Positions 37,061-61,638 of a stretch of 64,000 nt of DNA are shown piece by piece. Source of the stretch: Streptomyces sp. CBMA152 (lineage in GTDB: Bacteria; Actinomycetota; Actinomycetes; Streptomycetales; Streptomycetaceae). The notes beneath the pieces are model-generated. The model saw only the letters and a program-made list of their open reading frames with translations. It did not search any database and was not told the DNA's origin. The position numbers and the translations under genes were made by a program. Position 1 is the first letter of the stretch; every line of letters begins with the position of its first letter. The stretch spans positions 62,001 through 126,000 of the forward strand of contig NZ_MECJ01000007.1 in assembly GCF_014596475.1 (NCBI RefSeq). The letters run 5' to 3'.

Positions 37061-37101
37061 TGCGGGCCGGTGGGGGCCGATCGCGCAGTTCCCCGCGCCC
37101 C
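37061..37101 (-). repeat. Dispersed intergenic repeat, copy A
   Basis: The 20-base core GGGGCGCGGGGAACTGCGCG is present on the minus strand at 37082-37101, with the GC-rich flanking arm (CCGGTGGGGGCC on the plus strand). It is one of three copies in the 379-base gap 36957-37335, which holds no gene. Confidence 0.9.
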
Positions 37102-37213
37102 TTGGGTAGTCCGCCGCAGCCGGAGAACGCGGCTCAGCCACAGTCCTTTAGGAGCGCGGGGCTGTGACATGTGCGGCTCCGCCGCGCGGGCGCGAGCAAC
37201 GTCCGGGCCCCGT

Positions 37214-37256
37214 TAGGGGCGCGGGGAACTGCGCGAGCAAGCCAGCACGGTCCGCA
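37214..37256 (+). repeat. Dispersed intergenic repeat, copy B
   Basis: The core is at 37216-37235 on the plus strand, preceded by TTA and followed by AGCAAGCCAGCACGGTCCGCA. Confidence 0.9.
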
Positions 37257-37273
37257 CTGAACCACTGGCCTGT

Positions 37274-37316
37274 TAGGGGCGCGGGGAACTGCGCGACCAG
37301 CCCCCACCGGTCCGCA
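37274..37316 (+). repeat. Dispersed intergenic repeat, copy C
   Basis: The core is at 37276-37295 on the plus strand, 60 bases after copy B in tandem orientation, and carries the fullest arm (ACCAGCCCCCACCGG, then TCCGCA). Confidence 0.9.
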
Positions 37317-37335
37317 CCCGAAGCGCCGCGCCCAC

Positions 37336-39051
37336 TCACTTCGCCTCCGAGTACCGCTCCACAACCGCCGTGGTGAACGGAAACCGCACCGGGGTGTCCC
37401 CGAAGGCGATCCGCCCAGCAAGCTCCCCCGCCGAGCGGATCGCCGTCACCACATCCGCCGCCTCTTCAAGAGGACAGTGCACGATCACCTCGTCGTGCTG
37501 GAAGAAGACCAGCTCGGCCCGCATCCCGGCGGACGCGAGCGACGCGCGGAGCGCGGCGAGCAGCAGCAGTGCCCAGTCGGCCGCGCTGCCCTGCACCACG
37601 AAGTTACGAGTGAACCGCCCCCGCGCACGCGCGTTGCTCGACGCGTACCCCGGGGTGAACTCGCCGTCCGAGGACGGCAGTTCACCCTCCTGGGGCAGCC
37701 CCGCCTCACCGTCCTCACCCGCACCGGCAGCCGGCGGGCTGGTACGGCCGAGCCACGTCCGTACGAGCCGCCCCTCCTCACCCGCCTTCGCCGCGTCGTC
37801 GACGTACGCCACGGCCTTGGGGAACCGACGCCGCAGCGCGGCGAGGTTCTTCAGGCCGTCGCCGGACGTCTGCCCGTAGATCGCACCCAGCAGCGCGAGC
37901 TTCGCGTGCTCGCGGTCGCCGGAGAACGCGCGGTCGGACAGCGACGTGTACAGGTCGCCGTCGTGACCGGCCACCTCCATCAGCCCCGGGTCGCGGGAGA
38001 TCGCGGCGAGGACGCGCGGCTCCATCTGGTCGGCGTCCGCGACCACCAGCCGCCAGCCCTCGTCGGCGACGACCGCCTGCCGTATGACCTTGGGGATCTG
38101 CAGCGCGCCCCCGCCGTTGGTGGTCCAGCGGCCGCTCACCGAGCCGCCCGGCGTGTACTCCGGGCGGAAGCGCCCGTCGCGCACCCAGTCCTGCAGCCAG
38201 CTCCAGCCGTGCGCGGTCCAGATCCGGTACAGCTTCTTGTACTCGACGAGCGGTGCGACGGCCGGATGGTCGATCTCCTCCAGGGCCCATCGTCGGGTCG
38301 AGGTGATACGGATCCCGGCCTCGGCGAACGCCTTGATGACGTCGGCCGGCAGATCGGGCCGCACCCGGCGGCCGAACGCGGCCGACACCTCGTCCGCGAG
38401 CTCGGCCAGGCGCCGGGGCTCGCCACCGCCCGCGTACCGCTCGCCGAGCAGGCCGTGCAGCATCTCGCGATGGACGTCCGCCCGCCATGGCAGGCCCGCC
38501 CGGTTCATCTCGGCCGCGACCAGCATCCCGGCGGACTCGGACGCGGTGAGCAGCCGCATCCGGCCGGGGTGCAGCGCCGCATCGTGCCGCTTCTGCTGGT
38601 CCGCGTACACCTCGACCAGCGCCTCAAGCGGCAGCCCGGTGCCGCTCGGCGGCTCGAACAGCGGGGACTGGCGGCCGGGCTCGGCGGCGCGGGCGGGGGG
38701 ATCGGGCGGCACCGGGAGGCGGTGCAGCCGGGCCCACGCGGCCGCCGCCGAACGCGGCTCGCCGAGGCGTCCCTCGTGGCCCAGGAGCAGCAGCTCCGCG
38801 TCCTCGATGTCGTAGCACCGCTCGACGCGCACGCCCGCGGCGAGCAGGCGCGGGTAGATGTCGGCGGTCGACCGCCACACCCACCGCGTCACCTCGGGCC
38901 GCCCCCGCACGGCGGCGGCCAGCTCGCCCTCGTGCACCACGGCCCCTTCGGGCAGCCCGTCCCGCCCGAGGGCGACGAGCCGCGCGCCGCCGTCCTCGGT
39001 GGGGTCGATTGCCCACTTTCCGTCCACGAGTGCGAGTGTGACACCGGGCAC
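37336..39051 (-). CDS. Stand-alone family A DNA polymerase (PolA-like)
   Basis: This 571-residue protein has a family A polymerase domain: motif A DADQMEPRVLAA (catalytic Asp339), motif B REHAKLALLGAIYGQTSGDG and motif C QHDEVIVHC (His519-Asp520-Glu521). It has no 5' nuclease domain, and I see no DxE exonuclease motif in the N-terminal 200 residues although homologues are annotated as 3'-5' exonuclease/polymerase. It is probably an accessory repair polymerase besides PolA. GTG 39051 opens the conserved VTLALVDGKWA region; the longer frame to 39147 would overlap the divergent gene. Confidence 0.88.
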   Translation of the reverse strand: MPGVTLALVDGKWAIDPTEDGGARLVALGRDGLPEGAVVHEGELAAAVRGRPEVTRWVWRSTADIYPRLLAAGVRVERCYDIEDAELLLLGHEGRLGEPRSAAAAWARLHRLPVPPDPPARAAEPGRQSPLFEPPSGTGLPLEALVEVYADQQKRHDAALHPGRMRLLTASESAGMLVAAEMNRAGLPWRADVHREMLHGLLGERYAGGGEPRRLAELADEVSAAFGRRVRPDLPADVIKAFAEAGIRITSTRRWALEEIDHPAVAPLVEYKKLYRIWTAHGWSWLQDWVRDGRFRPEYTPGGSVSGRWTTNGGGALQIPKVIRQAVVADEGWRLVVADADQMEPRVLAAISRDPGLMEVAGHDGDLYTSLSDRAFSGDREHAKLALLGAIYGQTSGDGLKNLAALRRRFPKAVAYVDDAAKAGEEGRLVRTWLGRTSPPAAGAGEDGEAGLPQEGELPSSDGEFTPGYASSNARARGRFTRNFVVQGSAADWALLLLAALRASLASAGMRAELVFFQHDEVIVHCPLEEAADVVTAIRSAGELAGRIAFGDTPVRFPFTTAVVERYSEAK

Positions 39052-39104
39052 TGACAATGCCCTGGTGAGCGCGGCGCGCACGGATACGCAAGGGAGACAC
39101 TTCG

Positions 39105-40271
39105 ATGCCAGCGGGGCACGCGGGGAACACGACGGTCGAGCGGGCACTGGCCGCCGCGCTGTACGCGGAGACGGACGCGGGCCTCGACACGGGCGCGTCG
39201 TTGCTGGCCGCGGACCCGTCGTCGGACACGGAACTCGCCCTGCGCGGACAGGAGTTGATCGAGGGGGTGTGGGGGAGGGGCTGGCAGCCGGCGGATGTGA
39301 TCCGTATGGTCCGCCGCGAACTCGAGGAGCCGCACGTACGGCTGGCGGGCGAGCTCGTACGCGTACAGCTGAAGCGGTACGAGCAGCTGCCGCCGCGCTG
39401 GCGGGAGCAGGTGGACGCGCTCGGGGAGCCGGAGCCGTCCGGTCGGGCGGAGGACCGCTTCACGCGCGCGACGACCGTCCTGGAGCTGTACCGGCTGCTG
39501 CTGCGGCTGCCCGCGATCGAGCCGGTGGGGCCGGTGCCGGGCGCCACCGTGCACGCGCCGCCGCCGCACGGCGAGCCGAAGGCGCTGACGCGGATCCGGG
39601 CGCTGCTGGTCAAGGCGGAACGGACCGAGTTCCCGGACGAGGCGGAGGCGCTGAGCGCCAAGGCGCAGGAGCTGATGGCGCTGCACAGCATCGACGAGGC
39701 GGTGCTGGCGGCGGGCGGGCGGCGCGCGGACGGGCCGGGGGCGTGCCGGATCGGGGTGGACGCGCCGTACGAGACGTCCAAGGCGATCCTGCTCGACGCG
39801 GTCGCCTCCGCCAACCACTGCCGCGCGGTGTGGAACGGCGACCTCGGCTTCTCCACGGTCGTCGGCTTCGAGCCGGACCTGGAGGCGGTGGAACTGCTCT
39901 ACACCTCGCTGCTGGTGCAGGGTACGGCGGCGATGACGCGCGCGGAGGCCGCGCAGCGGGCGGGTGGTCGTAAGCGCACGAAAACGTTCCGGCAGTCCTT
40001 CCTGCTGGCGTACGCCCACCGCCTGGGCGACCTGCTCGCGGCCACGGCCCGCTCGGTCGAATCTGCCGCCGAGGCCGCCGACGACAGCCTCCTCCCGGTC
40101 CTCGCCACGCGCGCGGTGGCGGTCTCCGACCGCACGGACGAGATGTTTCCGCGGACGGTACGGACGCGGGTGCGGGGCGCTTGGGACGAGGCGGGGTGGC
40201 AGGACGGCGTCGCCGCCGCCGACCGCGCGCACCGCTCCCCGGGCCGTGGCGCGCTGCCCCCAGCGGGGTGA
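39105..40271 (+). CDS. DUF2786-domain protein
   Basis: This 388-residue soluble protein has a DUF2786 segment RIRALLVKAERTEFPDEAEALSAKAQELMALHSID (about residues 165-200), found in actinobacterial proteins and phage-like anti-restriction proteins. Its C-terminal half contains a Lys/Arg patch (GGRKRTKTFRQSF). Function is unknown. It is divergent from the polymerase, 53 bases apart, and both may respond to DNA stress. ATG 39105 has AAGGGAGA upstream. Its last residues are Pro/Gly-rich and a stem-loop follows. Confidence 0.82.
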   Translation: MPAGHAGNTTVERALAAALYAETDAGLDTGASLLAADPSSDTELALRGQELIEGVWGRGWQPADVIRMVRRELEEPHVRLAGELVRVQLKRYEQLPPRWREQVDALGEPEPSGRAEDRFTRATTVLELYRLLLRLPAIEPVGPVPGATVHAPPPHGEPKALTRIRALLVKAERTEFPDEAEALSAKAQELMALHSIDEAVLAAGGRRADGPGACRIGVDAPYETSKAILLDAVASANHCRAVWNGDLGFSTVVGFEPDLEAVELLYTSLLVQGTAAMTRAEAAQRAGGRKRTKTFRQSFLLAYAHRLGDLLAATARSVESAAEAADDSLLPVLATRAVAVSDRTDEMFPRTVRTRVRGAWDEAGWQDGVAAADRAHRSPGRGALPPAG

Positions 40272-40280
40272 CGCCCACAA

Positions 40281-40297
40281 TCGGGGCTGCGCCCCGA
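40281..40297 (+). terminator. Stem-loop after the DUF2786 gene
   Basis: TCGGGGC pairs with GCCCCGA around a TGC loop, nine bases after the stop. No U-run follows directly, although CCCCCGTTTTC comes shortly after. Confidence 0.6.
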
Positions 40298-40309
40298 CCC
40301 CCGTTTTCG

Positions 40310-40354
40310 TCTGCGGACCGACTTGGGTTGCTCGCGCAGTTCCCCGCGCCCCTA
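40310..40354 (-). repeat. Dispersed intergenic repeat, copy D
   Basis: The core is on the minus strand at 40333-40352. It is followed by CCCCTAGGGG at 40357-40366, a perfect palindrome just upstream of the next promoter. Confidence 0.88.
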
Positions 40355-40385
40355 ACCCCCTAGGGGTGGGGTGGGGGATTTGTCC

Positions 40386-40391
40386 TAGGCT
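40386..40391 (+). promoter_or_regulatory. Leaderless -10 element of the FUSC gene
   Basis: TAGGCT is followed by six bases and the ATG at 40398, without a ribosome site. Confidence 0.6.
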
Positions 40392-40397
40392 CGGGGC

Positions 40398-42482
40398 ATG
40401 AGCTGGCTCCGGTCACTGAAGCACACCGCCCGCTCGGGCCTGACCGTGGAGCGCAGGCGCCTGGAGCCCGCCATCGCCCTGCGCGGGGCCGCAGGACTCG
40501 CCCTAGTCGTCGGGGTCAGCCTCGCACTGCTCGGCCCCACCGCCGCCGTCAGCTCCGCCTTCGGCGCCTACCAGGCAGCCATCGCCACCTTCCAGAGGAG
40601 CTGGCGCCCCAGGCCCGTACTCGCGCTCGCCTCCGGCGCCAGCCTCGCGATCTCCACCTTCCTCGGCTACCTCGTCGGCGCCCACTCCCCGTTCTTCCTG
40701 CTCCTGCTCGCCGCGTGGACGTTCGTGTCGGGACTGGCCTGGGCCGTCGGCCCGACCGCCGGCATCATCGCGTCCTCGAACGTCGCGATCATGCTGGTCA
40801 CCGTCACCCTCCCCACCGACCTCGCCGCCGCAGCGGGCCACGCCGCGATGATCGCGGTCGGCGGGATCGTCCAGGCGGCGCTCATCGTGCTGGTGCCCGT
40901 ACGCCGCTGGGGCGCCCAGCGCGACGCGCTCGCCGACGCCCTCGCCGCCGAGGCCGACTACGCGCGCCGGCTCAGACACGACCCGCGCGCCCCCTTCGAC
41001 CCCGAGCCCCTGATGACCGCGCGCCTCGCCGCCGCCGTCACGCCTCGCGAGGCCCGTCGCCGCCCGGCCCAGCTGCACGGCACGCGCGGGGTCGCCGAGC
41101 GCATCCGCCCGGTCCTGGCCTCGCTCGCCGACCCCGCGCTCGGCGTGCCGGAGGAGGGCCCCGAGCGCGACCGGGTGCGCGAACTGCTCGGCGCCGCCGC
41201 CTCCGTGCTCGACGCGGCCGCCCGCGCCATCCGGCACGGCGTGGCCGTCGACATCCCCGCCCCCGCCGAGGCCGCGCTGCGTACGCCCGACACCGGCGCG
41301 ATCCTCTCCGGTCCCGCGTACCGCGCGGCCACCCGCCTGACCGCGCTCCTGAAAGACGTCGTGGAGACGGCCGCGGGCACCGGCGGCGCCGGGTCCGAGC
41401 CGCTGCTGCGGCCCACTCTGCCCCGACTGATCCCGCTCGCCCTGCGCACGATGCGCACCGAGTGCGGCCGTCGCGACTCCCCGGTCTTCCGGCACGCGGT
41501 GCGCGTCACCGCGGTCGCCGCCGCCGGCTACCTGCTCGCCAAGACCCTGCCGCTGGGCCACGGTTACTGGGCGCCGATGGCTTCGGTCATGGTGATGCGC
41601 CCGGACTTCTCCCAGACGTACGAGCGCGCCGTCGCCCGCTTCGGCGGCACCCTCGTCGGCGTCGCCCTGGCCACCGGGATAGTGCGCCTCACCCACCCCG
41701 GCACCGCGCTCTCCGCCGCCCTCGCGGTGCTCTGCGCGTTCCTGATGTACCTGCTGATGCGTACGGGATACGCGGCGGCCAGCGCCTGCGTCTCCGCGTA
41801 CGTCGTCTTCCTGCTCGGCATGGGCGGGCTGCGGTGGACGCAGACCGTGCCCGACCGTGTGCTGCTCACCCTGCTCGGCGGGCTGCTCGCGATGGTCGCG
41901 TACGCCCTCTACCCGGCCTGGGAGACGCCCAGGCTGCGCACCCGGCTCGCCGACTGGCTGGCCGCCTGCGGGCGTTACGCAGCCGCCGTCGTCACCCGGT
42001 ACGCCGACCCCGCGGCCCCCGCCGACGAGGTGCGCCGCGCGCTGCTCGCCACCCGCGCGGCCCGCCTCGCCTGGCAGGAGGCGCACGACCGCGCCACCCA
42101 CGAGCCCGTACGCCACCGGGGCCTGTCGCGCGCCGCCGCCGACGAGGCCGCGCACGCGGTGAGCCAGCTCGGCCGGATCGCGATGCTGATGGAGGCGCAT
42201 GTGCCCGAGAGGGGCGCGACCCCGGTCCCGGCCGCCGCCGCGTACGCCGGGGCGCTGCGCCGCGCCACCGAGCGGGGCGCGAAGGCGGTACGCGAGCGCC
42301 GCGTCCCGGACTGGGACGAGGTCGAGCAGGCGCTGGCGGCCTGGGACGGGGAGGGAGTGCCCGATCGCGTCGTACGCAAGGGAGCGGGGCTGCTGCTCCG
42401 CTCCCTCGACGACTTCTCCGAAGCGCTCACCGCGCCCGCCCCGCCGATGTCCGTCAAGGACGCCGAACCGGCCGGCGGTTAG
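40398..42482 (+). CDS. FUSC-family inner membrane protein
   Basis: This 694-residue protein has two blocks of about five to six membrane helices (about residues 20-160 and 360-510) separated and followed by soluble helical domains, the fold of FUSC/YccS and aromatic acid exporter-like proteins. The second block carries LAKTLPLGHGYWAPMASVMVMRPDFSQTYERAVARFGGTLVG, which contains the conserved FUSC signature. It likely exports an organic anion or hydroxylated aromatic compound. Its stop codon TAG is formed by the TA target site plus the first base of the MITE; the uninterrupted sequence would give the same stop, so the protein is not changed. Confidence 0.88.
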   Translation: MSWLRSLKHTARSGLTVERRRLEPAIALRGAAGLALVVGVSLALLGPTAAVSSAFGAYQAAIATFQRSWRPRPVLALASGASLAISTFLGYLVGAHSPFFLLLLAAWTFVSGLAWAVGPTAGIIASSNVAIMLVTVTLPTDLAAAAGHAAMIAVGGIVQAALIVLVPVRRWGAQRDALADALAAEADYARRLRHDPRAPFDPEPLMTARLAAAVTPREARRRPAQLHGTRGVAERIRPVLASLADPALGVPEEGPERDRVRELLGAAASVLDAAARAIRHGVAVDIPAPAEAALRTPDTGAILSGPAYRAATRLTALLKDVVETAAGTGGAGSEPLLRPTLPRLIPLALRTMRTECGRRDSPVFRHAVRVTAVAAAGYLLAKTLPLGHGYWAPMASVMVMRPDFSQTYERAVARFGGTLVGVALATGIVRLTHPGTALSAALAVLCAFLMYLLMRTGYAAASACVSAYVVFLLGMGGLRWTQTVPDRVLLTLLGGLLAMVAYALYPAWETPRLRTRLADWLAACGRYAAAVVTRYADPAAPADEVRRALLATRAARLAWQEAHDRATHEPVRHRGLSRAAADEAAHAVSQLGRIAMLMEAHVPERGATPVPAAAAYAGALRRATERGAKAVRERRVPDWDEVEQALAAWDGEGVPDRVVRKGAGLLLRSLDDFSEALTAPAPPMSVKDAEPAGG

Positions 42483-42670
42483 GGCCTGTCCGGTGGATCT
42501 TGCCTGGGACGCGCGGGGCTGGCACGCACATCTGCTGCGTTGTCGTCGGTTGCCGACGCTCCGCGTCGACGCCCTCCTCCGCCTTGCAGCTGCACGCACC
42601 AGCCCCCCGCTCACCAGCACCGAAAGGGCCTCCGGGACCGCAGGCGGCCAGATCCACCGGACAGACCCTA
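42480..42670. mobile_element. 187-bp MITE with 19-bp terminal inverted repeats and TA duplication
   Basis: The ends GGGCCTGTCCGGTGGATCT (42482-42500) and 42650-42668 are inverted copies with one mismatch. TA flanks both sides (42480-42481 and 42669-42670). The interior codes for nothing and contains a short GTCGTCGGTTGCCGACG palindrome. TA duplication fits IS630/Tc1-mariner or some IS5-type transposases. It sits exactly between two convergent genes. Confidence 0.85.
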
Positions 42671-42672
42671 GG

Positions 42673-43173
42673 TCAGGGCTTCGGCAGCCCGGTCGTCGGC
42701 ACGCTCGTCGGGAACTTGCCGTCGAGCGCCGACTTGGCGAACTTGTCCGTCGTCCCGCTCTCCCACTTCACGGTGAGCGTCTTGCCGTCCGCGCTCAGCG
42801 TGGGCATGCCCGCGACGCGGTCGGTGTTGCCGTCCGCGCACTTGAGCTCGATCATCGCCATGCCGTTGTCGTTGACCTTGCCGGTGCACGTGTGCTCGCC
42901 GCCGAGCGCCACGGTCGTCCCGCTGATCACCAGCGCGGTGGGCTTGCCATTGGCGATGGTCGCCCACGCCCCGGCGATGTCCTTGGCGCTCACCTTGGCG
43001 CTGTCGCCGCCGCTCTGCCCGCCGCCGTTGCCGGGGCTCGCGCTCTGCGCGCCGCCACCGGTGTTCTTGTCCTTGGACTTGTCGCCGCCGCTGTCGGAGC
43101 TGGAGCACCCGGCCAGGGCGAGACAGGCGGCGAGGGCCACGGCGCCCGCCCCGGTACGTACATGCCTGCGCAC
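42673..43173 (-). CDS. Small secreted lipoprotein, unknown
   Basis: This 166-residue protein has a signal peptide with lipobox LAGC (Cys at about residue 23), a Gly/Ser/Asp-rich linker, and a compact C-terminal beta domain (about residues 65-160) with two cysteines (HTCTG and LKCAD) that may form a disulfide. ATG 43173 follows GGGGATT. The stop lies three bases from the MITE target site. No catalytic motif is seen. Confidence 0.8.
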   Translation of the reverse strand: MRRHVRTGAGAVALAACLALAGCSSSDSGGDKSKDKNTGGGAQSASPGNGGGQSGGDSAKVSAKDIAGAWATIANGKPTALVISGTTVALGGEHTCTGKVNDNGMAMIELKCADGNTDRVAGMPTLSADGKTLTVKWESGTTDKFAKSALDGKFPTSVPTTGLPKP

Positions 43174-43479
43174 TGCGAAATCCCCTTGCTTCCACGCTTC
43201 CCGGACCGCGACAAGCTACCAGCCAGTGGCCTTCACCACGTTGCCGCCGCCATCGCCCATTGGTTTGAACCAGAGTTGCCCGCCAGGCGTCTCTTCTGTG
43301 GGGGGAGGGCCCGTGCCCGTACGCCGTGGACGTGCCCCGGAGCGTACGGAAACGACTGTAACGGCCCGAGCACCCCGCGTGCACGTGCATATGCTCATGC
43401 AGGCGCACATGAACACGGCTATGATCCGGGGCAGTTGACCTTTCACAGATGCACGTCTGCACATCCCCCGGGAGCGACC
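43174..43479. promoter_or_regulatory. Control region with palindrome TGCACGTGCA
   Basis: This 306-base gap separates a divergent lipoprotein gene and the DUF397 gene. It holds TGCACGTGCA at 43380-43389, followed by ATATGCTCATGCAGGCGCACATG, and a looser TGCACGTCTGCA at 43449-43460. The same 10-mer recurs in the divergent region at 44488-44497, so it is a candidate operator. Confidence 0.5.
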
Positions 43480-43719
43480 TTGCACCACGCGTACAACGGC
43501 ATGGCGGCAACAGAGCTTCAGGGTGTCGTCTGGCAGAAGAGCCGGCACAGCAACTCCCAGGGGACCTGTGTGGAGTTCGCCAGACTGCCGGGCGGAAGGG
43601 TCGCCGTCCGCAACTCGACGTTTCCGGACGGACCCGCGCTGGTCTACACCCGGGCGGAGATCGAGGCGATGCTGCTCGGCATCAAGGACGGCGAGTTCGA
43701 CCACTTGATCGTGGACTGA
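43480..43719 (+). CDS. DUF397 small protein of a WhiJ/AbaA-type cluster
   Basis: This 79-residue protein has the DUF397 pattern VVWQKSRHSNSQGTCVEFARL, VAVRNSTFPDGPALVYTRAEIEAML and a C-terminal KDGEFDHL. Such proteins are encoded beside an HTH/DUF5753 regulator and an HATPase protein in streptomycete development loci such as whiJ and abaA, where they antagonise the regulator. I prefer TTG 43480 with GGGAG five bases upstream; ATG 43501 is the alternative and lacks a ribosome site. Confidence 0.87.
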   Translation: MHHAYNGMAATELQGVVWQKSRHSNSQGTCVEFARLPGGRVAVRNSTFPDGPALVYTRAEIEAMLLGIKDGEFDHLIVD

Positions 43720-43785
43720 GTGGACTGAGTGGACTGAACTGAATGGGCTGATCAGCCGCTACGAATGACCCGTAAGAAGCAGAGA

Positions 43786-43815
43786 AACCGGCCGCCCCGC
43801 GTCGGACGGCCGGTT
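43786..43815. terminator. Bidirectional terminator between convergent genes
   Basis: AACCGGCCG and CGGCCGGTT pair perfectly across a 12-base loop between the stop of the DUF397 gene and that of the minus-strand ATPase gene. Confidence 0.75.
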
Positions 43816-43834
43816 CAGTCGGTATGCCGCGGTC

Positions 43835-45627: not shown

Positions 45628-45635
45628 GGGATGGC

Positions 45636-47842: not shown

Positions 47843-48460
47843 ATGTCAGCGATCCGCCTCCTCGTACTCGGTGCGGTCCGCCAGCACGGGCGGGCGCACG
47901 GGTACCAGGTCCGCAACGACCTGGAGTACTGGGGCGCCCATGAGTGGTCCAACGCCAAGCCCGGTTCGATCTACCACGCGCTGAAGCACATGGCGAAGCA
48001 GGGCGTGCTGCACGCCCACGAGATCGCGCCGAGCCCGGCGGGCGGCCCGCCCCGCACCGAGTACGAACTCACCGACGCCGGCCGCGAGGAGTTCCTGAAC
48101 CTTCTGCGCACGGCGCTCACGTCGTACGACCAGAAGATGGACCTCCTGTCGGCCGCGATCGGCTTCATGGTCGACCTCCCACGCGCCGAGGTGGTGACCC
48201 TGCTGCGCGCCCGCCTGGAGAAACTGGAGGCTTGGCGCACCTCGGTGACCGAGTACTACACCCCGACGGAAGGCCCCCAGTCCCTGGGCCACATCGGCGA
48301 GATCATGAACATGTGGGTCCACTCGTCAGACGCGGACGCGGAATGGACGAGGGGCCTGATCGCCCGCATCGAGGCGGGCGCGTACGTGTTCGCGGGGGAG
48401 GGGGAGCCGTTCGTGGGTGTGCTGGAGGAGGGGGAGGAGAACCCGTACGCGGTCCCTTAG
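47843..48460 (+). CDS. PadR-family transcriptional regulator
   Basis: This 205-residue protein has an N-terminal PadR winged helix (LLVLGAVRQHGRAHGYQVRNDL, then KPGSIYHALKHMAKQGVL and a PRTEYELTDAGREEF wing) and a C-terminal helical Vir_act_alpha_C-like domain. PadR regulators repress stress or drug-export genes and are relieved by small molecules. It appears leaderless, so it can be expressed separately from the DinB gene. Its stop codon merges with the core of repeat copy E (the G of TAG is the first base of the core). Confidence 0.9.
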   Translation: MSAIRLLVLGAVRQHGRAHGYQVRNDLEYWGAHEWSNAKPGSIYHALKHMAKQGVLHAHEIAPSPAGGPPRTEYELTDAGREEFLNLLRTALTSYDQKMDLLSAAIGFMVDLPRAEVVTLLRARLEKLEAWRTSVTEYYTPTEGPQSLGHIGEIMNMWVHSSDADAEWTRGLIARIEAGAYVFAGEGEPFVGVLEEGEENPYAVP

Positions 48461-48503
48461 GGGCGCGGGGAACTGCGCGACAAGCCCCCACCGGCCCGCA
48501 GAC
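48457..48503 (+). repeat. Dispersed intergenic repeat, copy E
   Basis: The core is at 48460-48479, beginning inside the PadR stop codon, with a full arm CAAGCCCCCACCGGCCCGCA after it. Confidence 0.9.
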
Positions 48504-48517
48504 AACAGCGCACCCAA

Positions 48518-48564
48518 TAAGGGGCGCGGGGAACTGCGCGACCAGCCACGCACGGCCTGCGGCC
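48518..48564 (+). repeat. Dispersed intergenic repeat, copy F
   Basis: The core is at 48521-48540, 61 bases after copy E in tandem, ending 26 bases before the glutamate decarboxylase stop on the other strand. Confidence 0.9.
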
Positions 48565-48589
48565 AAGCGACGCACCCCGCACGACGCGC

Positions 48590-51422: not shown

Positions 51423-51512
51423 TGCGGCCCCTGCACCCCGCTCGGGGCTCCGTCCCGGGCCCCGGCTGGGGTGGGTGGGTAAGCGGGGCTGCGCCCCTGC
51501 GCCCCGCTTCGG

Positions 51513-51557
51513 GTGCGGATCGTGCTGGGTTGCTCGCGCAGTTCCCCGCGCCCCTAA
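51513..51557 (-). repeat. Dispersed intergenic repeat, copy G
   Basis: The core is on the minus strand at 51535-51554, facing copy H. Confidence 0.9.
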
Positions 51558-51579
51558 AGGGGGGCCCGAAGGGCCCATC

Positions 51580-51625
51580 AAGGGGCGCGGGGAACTGCGC
51601 GGCCAGCCCCCACCGGGCCGCAGAC
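51580..51625 (+). repeat. Dispersed intergenic repeat, copy H
   Basis: The core is at 51582-51601 on the plus strand. Copies G and H form a head-to-head pair with a GGGGGCCC-GAA-GGGCCC spacer and together can fold into one long hairpin at the 3' end of the exporter gene. Confidence 0.9.
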
Positions 51626-51635
51626 GAACAACCGG

Positions 51636-53350: not shown

Positions 53351-53390
53351 ACAGCGGGCGGCGCACCCCGGAAGGTGCACCGCCCGCTGT
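53351..53390. terminator. Terminator of ppa
   Basis: ACAGCGGGCGGCGCACC pairs with 53374-53390 (one mismatch) around CCGGAA. It lies 18 bases past the ppa stop on the minus strand. Confidence 0.75.
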
Positions 53391-53407
53391 GGTGGATCAA
53401 AGGCGCG

Positions 53408-53902: not shown

Positions 53903-54086
53903 GGGTGGCTCTCCTCCATGATCAGCACAAGCTGTGACGGTTCCTGCGTCCCCCGGGCGGACCCGGGGCACTCAGCCGGATGGGCCGCCGGTGCTGACCC
54001 GGAGTGCCATGTTCGCGGCAAGACGCAGTTCTGGTGATTAAGTGTCCCTCACGCAGGTGTGTGATCGCGAAAGGGGCTGGTCCTCG

Positions 54087-55502
54087 GTGCCGGGACCCAA
54101 GACGTGGCAGCTCATGGTGGGTGCGGCTGCCGCAGGCCTGGCACTGGCGGCCGGAGCCGTGGCAGCGGCCGGTCCATGGGACTCCGGCCAGCGTACGGCC
54201 GAGCGCGTCAGGGCCGGCGCCCGCGAGCGGACAGGTGGCGCACATCACGGTCAGGCGCCCCCCACACCGGCGCCCGCGCCCAGTGCGAGGAGCGTGCTCA
54301 CCGCATTGAGCGCCCCCGCGAGCGCCCCTGTGGACGGACTGCCCCAGGCGCTCGGCCCGCTCCTGAGCGCCCCCGGCCTCGGCCCCCAGCCCGCCGCCGC
54401 CGTGTACGACACCGCGACCGGCAAGCAGCTCTACGCGGAGCGCGCGGACGCCGCCATGACGCCCGCCTCGACCGTCAAGATCGCCACCGCCGTCGCCGCG
54501 CTCTCCGCCCTCGGCCCCGACCACCGGATCGCCACGACCGTCCTGGCCCCGGCGGACGGCCGGGCGCTCACCCTCGTCGGCGGCGGCGACCCCACGCTCG
54601 ACAAGGACGGCCTGCGCGCCCTGGCCGACACCACCGCGCGCGCCCTGCGCGGCCGGGGCGTCACCGAGGCGACCCTCTCGTACGACACCTCGCGCTACAG
54701 CGGCCCCGAGACGCATCCCATCGGCCCGAACGAGAACCTCGCCCCGGTCGTCGCGCTGATGACCGACGAGGGGCGTACGGACGATACGGACAGCGGGCCC
54801 GCGCCGCGCAGCGGGGACCCGGCCGGGGACACCGCCCGTACGTTCGCGGCGCTGCTCAAGGAGCGCGGCGTCACGGTCGCCGCTCCCCGGCCCGGTACGG
54901 CCCCACAGGGCGCCGCCGAGGTCGCCCGTGCGCTCTCGGTGCCGCTGTCCTCGCTGGTCGAGCGGATGCTGACGAACAGCGACAACGACATCGCGGAGGC
55001 GCTGGCCCGCCAGACGGCGATCGCGGCCGGGCAGCCCGCCTCCTTCGAGGGCGCCTCGCGCGCGGTCGCCGACCGGCTCGCCAAGCTGGACCTGCCGCAG
55101 GCCGCCGCCGCCCGGTTCGCCGACGGCAGCGGGCTCGACCGCGACGACAAGGTCACCGCCGACCTGCTCACCCGCCTCCTCGCGCGCGCCGCCGACCCCG
55201 GCCACCCGGAGCTGCGCCCGGTCCTGACGGGTCTGCCGGTCGCCGGGTTCACCGGCACCCTGCGCGCCCGCTTCGGCGCCGGCTCGTCCGGTACGGGCCT
55301 GGTCCGCGCCAAGACCGGCACCCTCTCCGGCGTCAACACCCTCGCCGGCACGGTCGTCGACGCGGACGGGCATCTGCTGGCGTTCGCCTTCCTCGCCGCG
55401 AACACCCCGGGCCCCGACCCGGCCCAGCGCGCCCTCGACCGGCTGGCCGCCACCCTCGCCGGGTGCGGCTGCCACAGCGGCTCGCCGAGCCCTGCCCCGT
55501 AA
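54087..55502 (+). CDS. dacB: D-alanyl-D-alanine carboxypeptidase/endopeptidase (PBP4 type)
   Basis: This 471-residue peptidoglycan enzyme (peptidase S13) has an N-terminal membrane anchor (about residues 9-30), an Ala/Pro linker, then the three active-site motifs: ASTVK (Ser128), SDN in MLTNSDNDIAEA, and KTG in RAKTGTLSG. It trims or cleaves peptide cross-bridges outside the membrane. Start choice is uncertain: GTG 54087 is preferred because the anchor then begins at once, but the frame is open from GTG 54042. The stop lies close to an inverted repeat. Confidence 0.9.
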   Translation: MPGPKTWQLMVGAAAAGLALAAGAVAAAGPWDSGQRTAERVRAGARERTGGAHHGQAPPTPAPAPSARSVLTALSAPASAPVDGLPQALGPLLSAPGLGPQPAAAVYDTATGKQLYAERADAAMTPASTVKIATAVAALSALGPDHRIATTVLAPADGRALTLVGGGDPTLDKDGLRALADTTARALRGRGVTEATLSYDTSRYSGPETHPIGPNENLAPVVALMTDEGRTDDTDSGPAPRSGDPAGDTARTFAALLKERGVTVAAPRPGTAPQGAAEVARALSVPLSSLVERMLTNSDNDIAEALARQTAIAAGQPASFEGASRAVADRLAKLDLPQAAAARFADGSGLDRDDKVTADLLTRLLARAADPGHPELRPVLTGLPVAGFTGTLRARFGAGSSGTGLVRAKTGTLSGVNTLAGTVVDADGHLLAFAFLAANTPGPDPAQRALDRLAATLAGCGCHSGSPSPAP

Positions 55503-55509
55503 TCACTCG

Positions 55510-55556
55510 GCGTCAACCCTCCTCCCCTGGAGGAGGGGACAACGTACGGTTGACGC
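55510..55556. promoter_or_regulatory. Inverted repeat over the metalloprotease promoter
   Basis: GCGTCAACC (55510-55518) and GGTTGACGC (55548-55556) form an exact 9-base inverted repeat; the right arm lies between the -10 element and the start codon. CCCTCCT/AGGAGGG inside it forms a small hairpin. This may be a dacB terminator and/or an operator. Confidence 0.5.
55545..55550 (+). promoter_or_regulatory. Leaderless -10 element of the metalloprotease gene
   Basis: TACGGT is followed by six bases and the ATG at 55557, without a ribosome site. Confidence 0.55.
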
Positions 55557-56687
55557 ATGACGAGCATCGGTGGTGCCGAGATGGTCGACTGGAACCTCGC
55601 GGTGGCGACCGCGACCCGACTGGCGAGGCCGGGCCCGGAGGTGAGCCGGGACGAGGCGCGCGCCGTCGTCGCCGAGCTGCGCCGGCATGCCAAGTCCGCC
55701 GAGGAACATGTGCGGGCGTTCACCCGGATGATCCCGGAGGGCGCCGAACCGGCCGACACCCCGGTCCTGGTGGTCGACCGGGCGGGCTGGGTCAAGGCCA
55801 ATGTGGCGGGCTTCCGGGAGATCCTGAAGCCGCTGCTCGACAAGATGCAGGAGCGCCGGGGGAGCAGCCCGGGCGGCGCCGTGCTCGGCGCGGTCGGCGG
55901 CAAGGTGACCGGCGTGGAGCTGGGGATGCTGCTGAGCTTCCTGTCCTCGCGCGTCCTCGGCCAGTACGAGACGTTCGCGCCCGCCACCCGTGAGCTGCCC
56001 GCCGGGGCCGACGGCGGCGGCCGGCTGCTGCTCGTGGCCCCCAACATCGTCCATGTGGAGCGCGAACTCGACGTCGACCCGCACGACTTCCGGCTCTGGG
56101 TCTGTCTGCACGAGGAGACGCACCGCACCCAGTTCACGGCCGTGCCCTGGCTGCGCGACCATCTGGAGGGCGAGATCCAGTCATTCCTCGGCGAGACCGA
56201 GGTCGACCCGATGACCGTCCTGGAGCGGCTGCGCGAGGCCGCCCAGTCGCTCACCGGAAGCCGCCCCGAGGGCGAGGAGGGCGACAGCGGCCGCTCCCTC
56301 GTGGAGCTGGTGCAGACGCCCGCCCAGCGGGAGATCCTGAGCCGCCTGACCGCCGTGATGTCGCTGCTCGAAGGCCACGCGGACTTCGTCATGGACGGGG
56401 TCGGGCCGCAGGTCGTGCCCTCGGTCGCCGAGATCCGCGAGAAGTTCCAGCAGCGCCGCGCCAAGGGCGCGTCCCGCCTGGACCAGGCGCTGCGCAAACT
56501 GCTCGGGCTCGACGCGAAACTGCGCCAGTACCGCGACGGGGAGCGCTTCGTACGAGCCGTGGTGGAACAGGTCGGCATGGACGGCTTCAACCGGGTGTGG
56601 ACCTCGCCGAACACACTGCCGACCAAGGCGGAGATCGCCAAACCGGCGGACTGGGTCGCGCGGGTGCACCGCAGGACGGAGAGCTGA
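55557..56687 (+). CDS. Zinc-dependent metalloprotease, coenzyme F420 biosynthesis-associated (DUF2342)
   Basis: This 376-residue protein has a zinc-binding HEETH motif (His185, His189), a downstream LLEGHADFVMD segment that supplies the third ligand, and the DUF2342 profile. Family members were named after association with F420 genes, but none are near, so that link is not shown here. It lies upstream of tilS and hpt in the same direction. The promoter is leaderless and overlaps an inverted repeat. Confidence 0.88.
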   Translation: MTSIGGAEMVDWNLAVATATRLARPGPEVSRDEARAVVAELRRHAKSAEEHVRAFTRMIPEGAEPADTPVLVVDRAGWVKANVAGFREILKPLLDKMQERRGSSPGGAVLGAVGGKVTGVELGMLLSFLSSRVLGQYETFAPATRELPAGADGGGRLLLVAPNIVHVERELDVDPHDFRLWVCLHEETHRTQFTAVPWLRDHLEGEIQSFLGETEVDPMTVLERLREAAQSLTGSRPEGEEGDSGRSLVELVQTPAQREILSRLTAVMSLLEGHADFVMDGVGPQVVPSVAEIREKFQQRRAKGASRLDQALRKLLGLDAKLRQYRDGERFVRAVVEQVGMDGFNRVWTSPNTLPTKAEIAKPADWVARVHRRTES

Positions 56688-56896
56688 CCACAACAGCGCC
56701 GACGGTACCCATGGGCCCGGGGCCCACTGGTGTCCCCCGGAAATGCGCAGGATCACCCATCCGAGGGACCGTAGGGCATGGGTAGGCGTGCAATGCTCGG
56801 GTAACGGCTCGGTTCTGTCACCATCTACGCACTCTGTGTGACCGATCTTTTCCCTCGTCCCGAGGCACCCCCCAACTTCACCGAAGGGCACCGGAC

Positions 56897-57985
56897 ATGG
56901 GTCCCCATCCTGCGGTCGCGGCGATACGCCTGGCGGTCCGCCGCGTACTCCACGACGTACTGCGCGACGCGCTCGTCCTCCAGGACGCCGCCGACAGCGC
57001 ACCCCACGACACCCCCGAATCCCCCCGTTCCCCCGAAGCACCCCGCGACCACGCGCGCGAGGGCCGCGTGAGCGACCCGCTGGTCCTCGTCGCCTGCTCG
57101 GGCGGCGCCGACTCCATGGCGCTCGCCTCCGCCCTCGCCTTCGAATCCCGCAAGCTCTCCGTCCGCGCCGGCGCCATCACCGTCGACCACGGCCTCCAGC
57201 ACGGCTCGGACCTGCGCGCCGCCGAGGTCGCCGTCCGGCTCACCGCGCTCGGCCTCGACCCCGTAGAGGCCGTCACGGTGCACGTGGGCCGCGAGGGCGG
57301 GCCCGAGGCCGCCGCCCGGGACGCCCGCTACGCCGCCCTGGACGCCGCCGCAGAGCGCCACGGCGCCGCCGCGATCCTGCTCGGCCACACCCGCGACGAC
57401 CAGGCGGAGACGGTCCTGCTGGGCCTGGCCCGCGGCTCCGGCACCCGCTCGCTGTCCGGCATGGCCGCCGTCTCCGGTACGCGCGGCCGCTACCGCCGCC
57501 CGTTCCTCCAGATCGACCGGCAGACCGCCCGCAAGGCCTGCCTCGTCCAGTCGCTGCCCGTCTGGGACGACCCGCACAACGCCGACCCCGCCTACACCCG
57601 CTCCCGGCTGCGCCACGAAGGGCTGCCCGCCCTGGAGAAGGCGCTCGGCAAGGGCGTCGTGGAGGCCCTGGCCCGCACCGCCGAGCTCTCCCGCGACGAC
57701 GCCGACGCCCTGGACGCCTGGGCCGCCGACGCCGACGCCTCTGTACGCGACGACGCGGGCGAGCTGGTGTGCCAGAAGCTGTACGCGCTGCCCGCCGCCG
57801 TGCGGCGCCGGGTGCTGCGCACGTCGCTCATCTGCGCCGGTTCACCCGCCGGTTCGCTCTTCGCCCGCCATGTCGAGGAGGTCGACCGCCTGATCACGGG
57901 CTGGCGCGGCCAGCGGGCCATCAACCTCCCCGGGCGCGTCGAGGCGCGGCGTCAGGGTGGCAGACTGGTCATCCGGCAGAGCTGA
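56897..57985 (+). CDS. tilS: tRNA(Ile)-lysidine synthetase
   Basis: This 362-residue ATPase attaches lysine to C34 of tRNA-Ile so that it reads AUA. The PP-loop SGGADS is at residues 68-73, followed by [32 protein letters not shown] and RPFLQIDR. The N-terminal 60 residues are a variable helical lead. The C-terminal domains of the longer E. coli enzyme are absent, as is usual in actinobacteria. ATG 56897 lies soon after AAGGGCACCGG. The 209-base gap before it holds no gene. It is followed 21 bases later by hpt. Confidence 0.93.
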
Positions 57986-58006
57986 GCTCACGTACGTACA
58001 ACGAAA

Positions 58007-58570
58007 GTGGCCCGGGTGAACGAGAAGGACATGGGCACCGACCTCCAGTCGGTGCTCATCACCAAGGAAGAGATCGACGCCAAGCTGGCCGAGCTGGCCG
58101 CGAAGATCGACGCGGAGTACGCGGGCAAGGACCTCCTGATCGTCGGTGTCCTCAAGGGCGCCGTGATGGTCATGGCGGACCTGGCGCGCGCGCTGTCCAC
58201 CCCGGTCACCATGGACTGGATGGCCGTCTCGTCCTACGGCGCGGGCACCCAGTCCTCCGGCGTCGTCCGGATCCTCAAGGACCTCGACACCGACATCAAG
58301 GGCAAGCACGTCCTGATCGTCGAGGACATCATCGACTCGGGCCTCACCCTGTCGTGGCTGCTGTCCAACCTCGGATCCCGCGAGCCCGCCTCTCTTGAGG
58401 TCTGCACGCTGCTCCGTAAGCCGGATGCCGCAAAGGTCGCGATCGACGTGAAGTGGATCGGGTTCGACATTCCGAATGAATTCGTCGTCGGTTACGGCCT
58501 GGACTACGCCGAGAAGTACCGCAATCTCCCGTTTGTCGGGACGCTCGCTCCGCACGTCTACGGCGGCTGA
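58007..58570 (+). CDS. hpt: Hypoxanthine phosphoribosyltransferase
   Basis: This 187-residue type I phosphoribosyltransferase salvages hypoxanthine and guanine with PRPP. It has [19 protein letters not shown], the flexible-loop region SSYG, the PRPP-binding motif [14 protein letters not shown] and [21 protein letters not shown]. Starts at GTG 58007, GTG 58016 or ATG 58031 are all possible and the first is given; a weak GAAAG precedes it. The tilS-hpt-ftsH order is widely conserved in bacteria. Confidence 0.94.
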
Positions 58571-58600
58571 GCCGGTAACCCGGTCGGGAACCAAGAGCCC

Positions 58601-58626
58601 CCTTCCCGCGTTGGAGCTTGGGAAGG
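58601..58626 (+). terminator. Possible hpt terminator
   Basis: CCTTCCC (58601-58607) pairs with GGGAAGG (58620-58626) around a 12-base loop, followed by CGGGTTTG. It separates hpt from the ftsH promoter region (58627-58751), where I see no clear -10/-35 pair. Confidence 0.6.
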
Positions 58627-58751
58627 CGGGTTTGTCAGCCGTCCCTTGCGGCCGCGGGTGACAATGCTGGGGTACCGTCCGAAGAACAGTCTTTACTCAC
58701 AGCAGCATTTACCTACGGGCAGGAGGGACGGGGCGTTCTCGCTCCGTATGG

Positions 58752-60779
58752 ATGGACGTGAAGCGATACTTCCGTGGGCCGGTCATGTGGATCGTGCTGG
58801 CCGTCCTCGCCGTGGTCGTGTTGATGCAGGTCGTCGGCTCGTCGGGCGGCTACAAGACGGTGGACACCTCCGAGGTCGTCCAGGCGATCGACAAGAACCA
58901 GGTCGAACAGGCCAAGATCACCACCGGCGACGAGTCGGTCATCAAGGTCGACCTCAAGGACGGCCAGAAGGTCAAGGGCAGCGGCAAGATCCAGGCGAGC
59001 TACATCGGCGACGCCCAGGGTACGAGCCTGGCCAACAAGCTGCAGGGCAAGTTCGACAGCGGGGACCTGACCAAGGGCTACACGGTCTCCCCCTCCAAGC
59101 AGAACCCGATCGTGGGGATCCTGCTCTCGCTGCTCCCCTTCGTCCTCATCGTCGTCGTCTTCCTGTTCCTGATGAACCAGATGCAGGGCGGCGGCTCCCG
59201 GGTCATGAACTTCGGGAAGTCCAAGGCGAAGCTCATCACCAAGGACACCCCGAAGACGACGTTCGCGGACGTGGCCGGGGCCGACGAGGCCGTCGAGGAG
59301 CTCCACGAGATCAAGGAGTTCCTCCAGGAGCCGGCGAAGTTCCAGGCCGTCGGCGCCAAGATCCCCAAGGGCGTGCTGCTCTACGGCCCGCCCGGCACCG
59401 GTAAGACGCTCCTCGCGCGCGCCGTCGCGGGCGAGGCGGGCGTGCCGTTCTACTCGATCTCCGGTTCCGACTTCGTCGAGATGTTCGTCGGTGTCGGTGC
59501 CTCGCGTGTGCGCGACCTCTTCGAGCAGGCCAAGGCGAACGCCCCGGCGATCGTCTTCGTCGACGAGATCGACGCCGTTGGCCGGCACCGCGGTGCGGGT
59601 CTCGGCGGTGGCCACGACGAGCGCGAGCAGACCCTCAACCAGCTGCTCGTCGAGATGGACGGCTTCGACGTGAAGGGCGGCGTCATCCTGATCGCCGCCA
59701 CGAACCGGCCCGACATCCTCGACCCGGCGCTGCTGCGCCCCGGCCGGTTCGACCGCCAGATCGCCGTCGACCGCCCGGACATGCAGGGCCGTCTGGAGAT
59801 CCTCAAGGTCCACCAGAAGGGCAAGCCGGTCGCCCCGGACGTCGACCTCTCGGCCGTCGCCCGTCGCACCCCCGGCTTCACCGGCGCCGACCTGTCGAAC
59901 GTGCTGAACGAGGCGGCGCTCCTGACGGCGCGCAGCAACCAGAAGCTGATCGACAACAACATGCTGGACGAGGCGATCGACCGCGTCGTGGCGGGCCCGC
60001 AGAAGCGGACCCGGATCATGTCCGACAAGGAGAAGAAGATCACCGCGTACCACGAGGGCGGTCACGCCCTGGTCGCGGCGGCGTCTCCGAACTCGGACCC
60101 GGTCCACAAGATCACGATCCTGTCGCGCGGCCGGGCCCTCGGCTACACGATGGTCCTGCCGGACGAGGACAAGTACTCGACCACGCGCAACGAGATGCTC
60201 GACCAGCTCGCCTACATGCTGGGCGGGCGCGCGGCCGAGGAGCTCGTCTTCCACGACCCGACGACGGGCGCGGCGAACGACATCGAGAAGGCCACGGCCA
60301 CCGCGCGCGCGATGGTCACGCAGTACGGCATGACCGAGCGGCTCGGCGCGATCAAGTTCGGCGGCGACAACACGGAGCCGTTCCTGGGCCGTGAGATGGC
60401 GCACCAGCGCGACTACTCGGAAGAGGTCGCGGCGCTGGTCGACGAAGAGGTCAAGAAGCTCATCGAGACCGCGCACAACGAGGCGTGGGAGATCCTGGTC
60501 GAGAACCGCGACGTCCTCGACAACCTGGTCCTGCAGCTCCTGGAGAAGGAGACGCTGGGCAAGGAGCAGATCGCCGAGATCTTCGCCCCGATCGTGCGGC
60601 GCCCCGCGCGTCCGGCCTGGACGGGCTCGTCGCGGCGTACGCCGTCGACCCGCCCGCCGGTCCTGTCGCCCAGGGAGCTGGCGCTGACCAACGGCGCGTC
60701 CACCGCCAACGGCGCCGCCCCGACGGACTCGGTCCCGACCGAGCAGCTGCCGGGTGTGGAGGACCGTCCCGAGAGCTGA
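58752..60779 (+). CDS. ftsH: ATP-dependent zinc metalloprotease FtsH
   Basis: This 675-residue membrane AAA+ protease degrades damaged membrane proteins and regulators. It has two membrane helices (about residues 9-27 and 118-140) flanking an extracytoplasmic domain, AAA with Walker A GPPGTGKT (about residues 213-220), Walker [12 protein letters not shown] and SRH region [18 protein letters not shown], then the protease domain with HEGGH (about residues 434-438). A Ser/Thr/Pro-rich tail of about 60 residues follows. ATG 58752 is used; ATG 58748 is out of frame. Confidence 0.97.
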
Positions 60780-60807
60780 TCGTCTGCTCCTCGGACCCGG
60801 AATGCAT

Positions 60808-60844
60808 GCCGCGCCCCCCAGGTTTTAGCCTGTGGGGGCGCGGC
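60808..60844 (+). terminator. Terminator between ftsH and folE
   Basis: The 11-bp stem GCCGCGCCCCC / GGGGGCGCGGC has an inner CAGG/CCTG arm around TTTTAG. It lies 28 bases after the ftsH stop, so folE probably has its own promoter or depends on read-through. Confidence 0.8.
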
Positions 60845-60886
60845 GCTTTCGTACGCCCGTGCAGAGCAACGAGGAACGAGGCACAG

Positions 60887-61492
60887 ATGACCGACCCGGT
60901 GACGCTGGACGGCGAGGGCCGTATCGGCGAGTTCGACGAGAAGCGGGCCGAGAACGCCGTGCGCGAGCTCCTCATCGCGGTCGGAGAGGACCCGGACCGC
61001 GAGGGTCTGCAGGAGACGCCGGCGCGGGTGGCGCGGGCCTACAGGGAGATATTCGCGGGTCTGTGGCAGAAGCCGCAGGACGTGCTGACGACGACGTTCG
61101 ACCTGGGCCACGACGAGATGGTCCTGGTCAAGGACATCGAGGTCATGAGCAGCTGCGAGCACCACCTCGTGCCGTTCGTAGGCGTGGCGCACGTCGGGTA
61201 CATCCCGTCGACGGACGGGAAGATCACCGGCCTGTCGAAGCTGGCCCGTCTTGTCGATGTGTACGCGCGTCGGCCGCAGGTGCAGGAGCGGTTGACCACG
61301 CAGATCGCGGACTCCTTGATGGAGATCCTCGAACCGCGTGGCGTCATCGTGGTCGTGGAGTGCGAGCACATGTGCATGACGATGCGGGGTGTGCGGAAGC
61401 CTGGTGCGAAGACCATTACGTCCGCCGTGCGCGGGCAGCTTCGGGATGCGGCGACCCGTGCCGAGGCGATGAGCCTGATCATGGCTCGCTAG
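60887..61492 (+). CDS. folE: GTP cyclohydrolase I
   Basis: This 201-residue enzyme converts GTP to dihydroneopterin triphosphate, the first step of folate synthesis. Zinc and active-site residues are in [19 protein letters not shown] and [16 protein letters not shown], and the interface motif [13 protein letters not shown] is intact. ATG 60887 follows GAACGAGG. The frame is open further upstream into the end of ftsH, but that part is a shadow. The remaining folate genes lie on the opposite strand downstream. Confidence 0.96.
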
Positions 61493-61524
61493 CCCCGTTG
61501 CTTCGCCGGGGCGTGGGTGTTCGG

Positions 61525-61568
61525 CTGCGCGCCGGTGGGGGCTGGTCGCGCAGTTCCCCGCGCCCCTG
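61525..61568 (-). repeat. Dispersed intergenic repeat, copy I
   Basis: The core is on the minus strand at 61547-61566, 55 bases after the folE stop. Confidence 0.9.
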
Positions 61569-61596
61569 TGGGGCTGGGCTGTCGGGACGTCGACCG

Positions 61597-61638
61597 CGGA
61601 CCGTGCTTGGCTTGTCGCGCAGTTCCCCGCGCCCCTAA
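61597..61638 (-). repeat. Dispersed intergenic repeat, copy J
   Basis: The core is on the minus strand at 61616-61635, in tandem with copy I. Confidence 0.9.

Follow-up and report, generated by a model that had tools for sequence, protein, structure and literature searches.

A 64,000-nt stretch of the Streptomyces sp. CBMA152 genome (contig NZ_MECJ01000007.1, positions 62,001 to 126,000; hereafter the window) carries ten exact copies of a 20-base core. This core stays invariant within a repeat of about 47 nt. We consider it likely, with some reserve, that this repeat is a non-autonomous mobile element similar to REPINs (doublets of repetitive extragenic palindromic, or REP, sequences that form hairpins), copied in trans by a factor that is probably not a REP-associated tyrosine transposase (RAYT) of the known kind. 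The letter-perfect word, the variable tails, the inverted pairs, copy numbers of 0 to 795 and rapid turnover are best read as a REPIN-like population kept up by repeated copying of exact masters. A sequence-only reading of the window had offered two proposals, a REP-like mobile repeat or an RNA element at 3′ ends. The first agrees with our data on copy number, extragenic location, hairpin, head-to-head pairs, position at gene 3′ ends and turnover; the REP-associated transposase that it leads one to expect was not found.

Copy number and exactness of the core

The genome under study comprises 8.80 Mb in 39 contigs and is 98.7% complete. A search of all of it, as the sequence-only reading had advised, gave 433 exact cores (211 on the plus and 222 on the minus strand), compared with 0 for the reversed core word, which served as control and was searched alike. 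We also assembled a four-genome set from this genome and the relatives G324, G192 and G328 (155 copies in 1.63 Mb, of which the studied genome supplies 593 kb and 68 intergenic exact copies). Among the genomes scored, none came out closer to the studied one than G324 and G192, with about 91% identity at the compared gene ends. Genes were called with a purpose-built codon-usage model (86 and 90% coding). The core is neither at chance frequency nor equally common in genes, since only 1 of the 155 copies lies in a predicted gene; more than 100 copies and an extragenic location, both expected of a REP sequence, are thus observed.

Imperfect matches were counted at up to 3 mismatches. Genome-wide there are 482 such matches to the core, 49 beyond the exact ones, and 87 to the reversed control, so that no cloud of imperfect copies is visible. 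The intergenic counts at 0, 1, 2 and 3 mismatches in the studied genome are 68, 1, 0 and 0 for the core and 0, 0, 3 and 5 for the control; the core counts are 48, 5, 1 and 1 in G324, 18, 6, 4 and 1 in G192, and 20, 2, 0 and 0 in G328. The window holds 11 matches at this tolerance compared with 0.18 expected, a number reached in 0 of 100 shuffles. The eleventh, with 2 mismatches, lies at 21677-21696 on the minus strand within predicted gene 21192-24383 and is probably due to chance.

Anatomy and predicted folding

Each unit consists of an A, the core and a tail, the last of these strongly variable around the consensus AcCAGCCcccacCGgcCCGCag.cgAa. The A precedes 67 of the 68 cores in the studied genome and 147 of the 155 in the four genomes, and is followed by GGG. 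The core is predicted to form a hairpin with the stem GCGCGG-GGAA-CTGCGC, namely 6 bp (G4-C19 to G9-C14) closed by a GGAA loop, behind an unpaired GGG leader. The energy is -11.2 kcal/mol as RNA (z -3.4) and -5.9 kcal/mol as DNA (z -2.8, or -2.83 unrounded). A palindromic unit able to form a stem-loop, as REP sequences have, is therefore predicted, though without covariation: when the core was compared with 22 variants of at most 2 changes (23 sequences in all, leaving out variants with 3 or more and some from named loci), there were no compensatory paired changes, either for this hairpin or for the bulged fold described below. Position 15 is the usual variable site (T to G or C), and G10, A12, A13, C14 and G16 are invariant in the same set.

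The bulged hairpin proposed earlier, pairing CGCG with CGCG and GGGGC with a GCCCC arm behind the core, is superseded by this simpler fold. The arm is a detail that proved only partly right: it is present in 5 of the 10 window copies and in 54 of the 155, so that pairing of GGGGC with GCCCC is possible in some copies and not in others. Folding of the whole 45-nt element in the studied genome does not surpass that of 150 intergenic windows taken elsewhere in it (z -0.18 versus -0.38, p 0.26).

There is also a long-loop form, where AACT is swapped for a stretch of 28-29 nt with CGGCTCCGCCG. The pattern has 6 matches in 593 kb, one of them at window position 37151. As a separate observation, GCCCC stands at most 14 nt upstream of the core in 14 of 17 copies read in G117 (L285-L311), often as GCGCCCCGTMA adjoining it, and could there form a second hairpin competing with that of the core. 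The same upstream motif is found in 36 of 116 copies in named loci and in 6 of 58 in the studied genome outside the window.

Pairing and position relative to genes

Neighbouring copies, defined as less than 150 nt apart, form 56 pairs in the four genomes: 32 head-to-head, 24 in the same direction and 0 tail-to-tail. Head-to-head inverted pairs of an invariant word, as expected of REPINs, thus make up 32 of 56. A rule of 'never tail-to-tail' was rejected, as it is confined to the studied genome and its three relatives; the pairs in 80 named loci include 12 of 27 head-to-head and 5 of 27 tail-to-tail, and those in G117 1 of 3 and 2 of 3, respectively. Direct repeats mostly have a period of about 60 nt. 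Spacer lengths in head-to-head pairs are concentrated at 10, 25 and about 49 nt; a predicted hairpin, for example GGGCCCGAAGGGCCC, is often present in the longer spacers. Very stable hairpins are predicted for whole head-to-head pairs, at -51.6 kcal/mol (10-nt spacer) and -64.0 kcal/mol.

The 155 copies are distributed over convergent gaps (100), co-oriented gaps (46) and divergent gaps (6), with 1 in a gene and 2 at an edge. In the studied genome, convergent gaps make up 17% of the intergenic room and hold 47 of the 68 copies, while divergent gaps make up 35% and hold 5. Counted as distinct gaps holding copies, 27 of 41 are convergent (binomial p 5e-12). Mapping of the copies, which the sequence-only reading had called for, thus confirms a location at gene 3′ ends; it does not show a fixed orientation, as the single copies between co-oriented genes are opposite to them in 11 cases and in the same orientation in 6. 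The stop codon of the upstream gene is the starting point of seven of the 155 copies, all in the gene's own orientation; 0 abut it in the other.

Such a location is what one would expect of an RNA element at mRNA 3′ ends, that is, a terminator or an exonuclease-blocking hairpin spread by selection. The stable head-to-head hairpins and the seven copies at stop codons point the same way, as do 30 of the 155 copies in which 4 or more of the 9 nucleotides preceding the core are T. The available part of PMC4681348, where the core repeat is not named, describes abundant short RNAs in S. coelicolor, some at palindromes and many in 3′ untranslated regions. Against this proposal, orientation is not fixed, the 45-nt elements fold like other intergenic windows and compensatory changes are absent from the 23 sequences. 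The T-tract that marks an intrinsic terminator follows the element in 0 of 155 copies in the sense and 3 of 155 in the antisense direction. Rfam gave no match to any window copy, its sole match in the window being a tRNA gene at 27494-27567 on the plus strand, and none in C15:140001-220000. At C15:236055-236233 the copies flank a separate terminator-like hairpin with a T-tract, and at C15:120474-120763 another such hairpin separates the copies from the gene on the left. These hairpins lie beside or between the copies, so that the repeats are additional to them. A terminator function is not supported, and the RNA proposal, weakly supported, seems to us quite unlikely.

Turnover between relatives

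In orthologous gaps aligned with G324 (232), copies are shared in 18, present only in the studied genome in 7 and only in G324 in 4. The corresponding numbers are 3, 13 and 1 for G192 (191 aligned) and 2, 2 and 0 for G328 (19 aligned). Copies turn over fast, and close relatives are without many of them. Gaps with a copy only in the studied genome are longer than their counterparts by a median of 49 nt (G324) and 75 nt (G192), compared with -1 for gaps without copies; 3 of the 13 G192 cases run in the opposite direction. The window provides an example in gap 36957-37335, which is 379 nt long with three copies; its copy-free counterparts measure 46 nt (G324) and 105 nt (G192).

Where a gap is occupied on the same strand in both species, the tails show no greater similarity than random pairs do: the 27 pairs with G324 have a median of 14.0 versus 14.5 at random, with 1 above the random 95% point, and the 5 pairs with G192 behave likewise. 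At C15:297120, where the tail is orthologous, each of the three species has its own version of the core, with AACT in the studied genome, AACC in G324 and AGGGAACC in G192. Furthermore, long and short loops are exchanged at one place at C15:161511, C15:31811 and the gap of the 48460 copy (G192 versus G324).

These exchanges would suit homogenised relics, old cores equalised by template switching or gene conversion that swaps tails and loops without any transposition; gaps that stay occupied although their tails differ would also be explained. Such a process leaves unexplained the gaps that are empty, and mostly shorter, in relatives, as well as the range from 0 to 795 copies within one genus. 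For conversion of the RecA type, moreover, 20 bp is a short tract. We regard this explanation as improbable.

Distribution across genomes

In a survey of 392 genomes of the genus the exact core was found in 236 and was at 0 in 156, with 0 for the reversed control. The highest total was 795 copies (G388), and ten genomes had more than 400. In a second set of 61 genomes, the core was present in 21 of 37 from the genus (the studied one included) and in 0 of 24 from outside it. A scan of named genomes gave at least 119 stretches with the core, and the 80 listed belong to Streptomyces, Kitasatospora, Streptacidiphilus and Actinacidiphila. All four genera are Streptomycetaceae. No description of this repeat family was found in the literature searched by sequence and subject, which consisted mostly of titles and the beginnings of abstracts.

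Spread by plasmid or phage was rejected as an explanation: a 43-nt consensus matched 12 of 72,556 plasmid records, at 88-100% identity and all from Streptomyces, and 0 of 50,697 phage records. Likewise rejected was the idea that zero-copy genomes have a replacement family: in 100 kb each of G005, G004, G036 and G031 no intergenic 12-mer occurred more than 5 times, while the most frequent one in 100 kb of the studied genome occurred 23 times. A second intergenic repeat family, with the pattern CTCAAACGCCGGACGGGCTG, shares gaps with the core repeat in relatives such as G328 (L211-L214); its exact word is found in 25 of the 61 genomes, with a maximum of 95 copies (G002) and 1 in the studied genome.

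A 36-mer subtype is confined to the central 5.3 Mb of the 8.91-Mb chromosome G324:C1: all 70 of 70 copies fall in the part from 1.93 to 7.25 Mb, with none in the outer 1.9 and 1.7 Mb. Copies in G009 are spread wider, the first at 0.50 and the last at 8.98 Mb on a length of about 9.4 Mb. In G117 and G271 a strand bias by replichore had been suspected; it was ruled out for G117, where minus-strand copies share the same stretches.

The absence of the subtype from both chromosome ends, the convergent-gap location, and a core that stays exact across genera and across dissimilar tails could also be accounted for by a host-selected DNA site. Here a nucleoid or topology protein would bind the core, which would absorb supercoils between convergent genes; a gyrase-linked role of this kind has been proposed for the bacterial interspersed mosaic elements (BIMEs). 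A site needed by the host sits badly with the 156 of 392 genomes that lack the exact core, four of them also without an abundant substitute in the 100 kb inspected. Nor does it fit the quick turnover of copies, or the differing cores at C15:297120. We consider a host-selected site unlikely. Most likely no host function is required, given the genomes without core or substitute; one is possible and not needed.

Search for a mobilising gene

The search for a REP-associated tyrosine transposase, also advised by the sequence-only reading, found none. The studied genome has a single Y1_Tnp gene, which scores 139.8 bits with the IS200/IS605 model (cut-off 55) and 21.9 with the REP-transposase model (cut-off 80), and no core lies within its 3,363-nt locus. 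This TnpA gene (L029, 1483-1914 on the minus strand) and a TnpB gene in opposite orientation (1877-3166 on the plus strand) make up an IS605-type element. Y1_Tnp is present in 10 of the 61 genomes, the studied one included. RAYT was rejected as the driver because it was not found in the cases tested. Nor is there an evident link of Y1_Tnp to copy number, since some genomes with few or zero cores have several matches (8 in G024 with 6 cores, 2 in G025 with 0).

An autonomous parent element was similarly rejected. Twenty pairs of cores lie 0.4-4 kb apart, each enclosing 1-3 genes, and the only similarity among the enclosed proteins was of a gene with itself or with its orthologue. The 81 core-adjoining genes of the studied genome include 7 pairs of distant paralogues (27-40% identity).

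Comparison with known repeat systems

Based on the portions of PMC3116915 available, the REPINs of Pseudomonas resemble the core repeat in having a short invariant word in extragenic inverted pairs with a variable spacer, which form one large hairpin, and in being a population of sequences around one master word. They are thought to depend on RAYT in trans (PMC3116915, same portions). The core repeat differs from them in that no RAYT was found, in the variable tail outside the pair and in its frequent direct arrays of about 60 nt.

The GTAG and CGTC REPs, as far as described in the accessible sections of PMC3733652, are alike in being palindromes of 20-40 bp with head-to-head dimers in convergent and co-oriented gaps. 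In the same sections the GTAG type has ends that supply TAG stop codons, and the CGTC type is likewise without a dedicated transposase. Actinobacterial, Streptomyces, Frankia and mycobacterial terms are absent from the text of PMC3733652. Unlike these tagged families, the core repeat hardly ever has such a tag around the core 5′ end (GTAG in 1 of 155 copies, CGTC in 0 of 155), the leader being A (147 of 155) and GGG. The tag expected of a REP is thus lacking; GACG, the reverse complement of CGTC, appears in 59 of 155 tails and is inconstant.

With its short unpaired leader on the 5′ side, the predicted hairpin is like those that the enzymes of IS200/IS605 elements and the TnpA-REP system recognise on single-stranded DNA (PMC8266576 and PMC6006769). 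The Actinobacteridae of the PMC6006769 sample have, in the part available, subclass 1.1 (TnpA of IS200) only. The one such gene of the studied genome is of this IS200-subclass type, without a core nearby. BIMEs of E. coli, from partial texts (PMC2817692, PMC8266576), also lie at gene ends and mosaic several short repeats in one gap; unlike for them, a binding protein for the core did not turn up in the searches made. With respect to miniature inverted-repeat transposable elements, head-to-head pairs provide the inverted ends, while junctions are untidy and no duplication can be read.

A model for the spread of the repeat

In the model that we prefer, a trans-acting factor, likely no RAYT of known kind, would copy the repeat to new sites. 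It may recognise the AGGG leader and the GCGCGG-GGAA-CTGCGC stem as single-stranded DNA; with the core as the recognised part, only exact cores would keep multiplying. Copies landing inside genes or promoter regions would be lost, which would leave those between convergent genes, and old copies would decay or be deleted. Copying itself, like the enzyme behind it, is an inferred part of the model.

Several observations weigh against this model. Gaps occupied in both the studied genome and G324 exceed independence, at 18 versus about 2.4 of 232, and still do so within convergent gaps alone (14 versus about 6.6 of 41). Independent insertion therefore needs a strong site preference; alternatively, sites persist and their tails are overwritten. 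A clean insertion with target-site duplication could not be read, the junctions examined being untidy. The central clustering of the G324 subtype is not predicted by free transposition alone, and other species do have tail-to-tail pairs (5 of the 27 pairs in named loci and 2 of the 3 in G117). A core without paired changes could also owe its exactness to host selection. As to the enzyme, no cognate RAYT was found in the studied genome, where at 98.7% completeness a missed gene is possible. Y1_Tnp is absent from G032 (346 copies), G014 (107), G027 (78) and G026 (73), the four relatives covered by this test, which did not extend to the very high-copy G388, G083 and G324. No gene recurs between nearby cores, barring the same gene or its orthologue.

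A more specific form of the REPIN-like reading can be put forward tentatively, and we lean against its holding in full. It takes the repeat as a class native to the Streptomycetaceae that reaches up to 795 exact copies in one genome without any RAYT, with another enzyme, of the host or of an element, copying the AGGG-led GGAA hairpin and the loop switching between 4 and 28-29 nt at a fixed site.

Copies in the window

The ten cores had been located correctly in the sequence-only reading, in position and in strand, and the first 37 kb are indeed without an exact copy. By the gene model nine copies are wholly intergenic, and the tenth (48460) overlaps a stop codon by one G, in agreement with the earlier remark that one copy begins inside a stop codon. 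Most are paired, as had been said: 9 of the 10 have another copy within 135 nt.

Table 1. Repeat copies and related features of the window
Feature	Position	Strand	Remarks
Repeat copy, core 37082-37101	37056..37102	-	Exact core; in convergent gap 36957-37335
Long-loop form, AACT replaced by stretch with CGGCTCCGCCG	37151..37194	+	Same element
Tail-only remnant (GGCGACCAGCCCCACCGGCCCGCAGAC), core lost	36980..37006	-	
Repeat copy, core 37216-37235, tail type AGCAAGCCAGCACGG	37215..37261	+	Exact core
Repeat copy, core 37276-37295	37275..37321	+	Direct repeat of 37215..37261 copy, 60-nt period
Single (solitary) repeat copy, core 40333-40352	40307..40353	-	Between co-oriented genes 39105-40271 and 40398-42482
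Repeat copy, core 48460-48479	48459..48505	+	First G of core is last base of TAG stop of gene 47843-48460
Repeat copy, core 48521-48540	48520..48566	+	Direct repeat of 48459..48505 copy, 61-nt period
Left half of head-to-head pair, core 51535-51554	51509..51555	-	Exact core
27-nt spacer of head-to-head pair, with predicted hairpin GGGCCCGAAGGGCCC	51555..51581	.	
Right half of head-to-head pair, core 51582-51601	51581..51627	+	Exact core
Repeat copy, core 61547-61566	61521..61567	-	Exact core
Repeat copy, core 61616-61635	61590..61636	-	Direct repeat of 61521..61567 copy, 69-nt period

Implications

The movement of GTAG-tagged REP-type repeats is attributed to RAYT transposases. If the REPIN-like reading is true, hundreds of perfect copies without RAYT would mean a second route by which repeats of the REP type spread. 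As zero-copy and high-copy species occur in one genus, a direct search for this route is possible. Copies at gene ends in an antibiotic-making genus are also relevant to terminator design and to artefacts of assembly and recombination.

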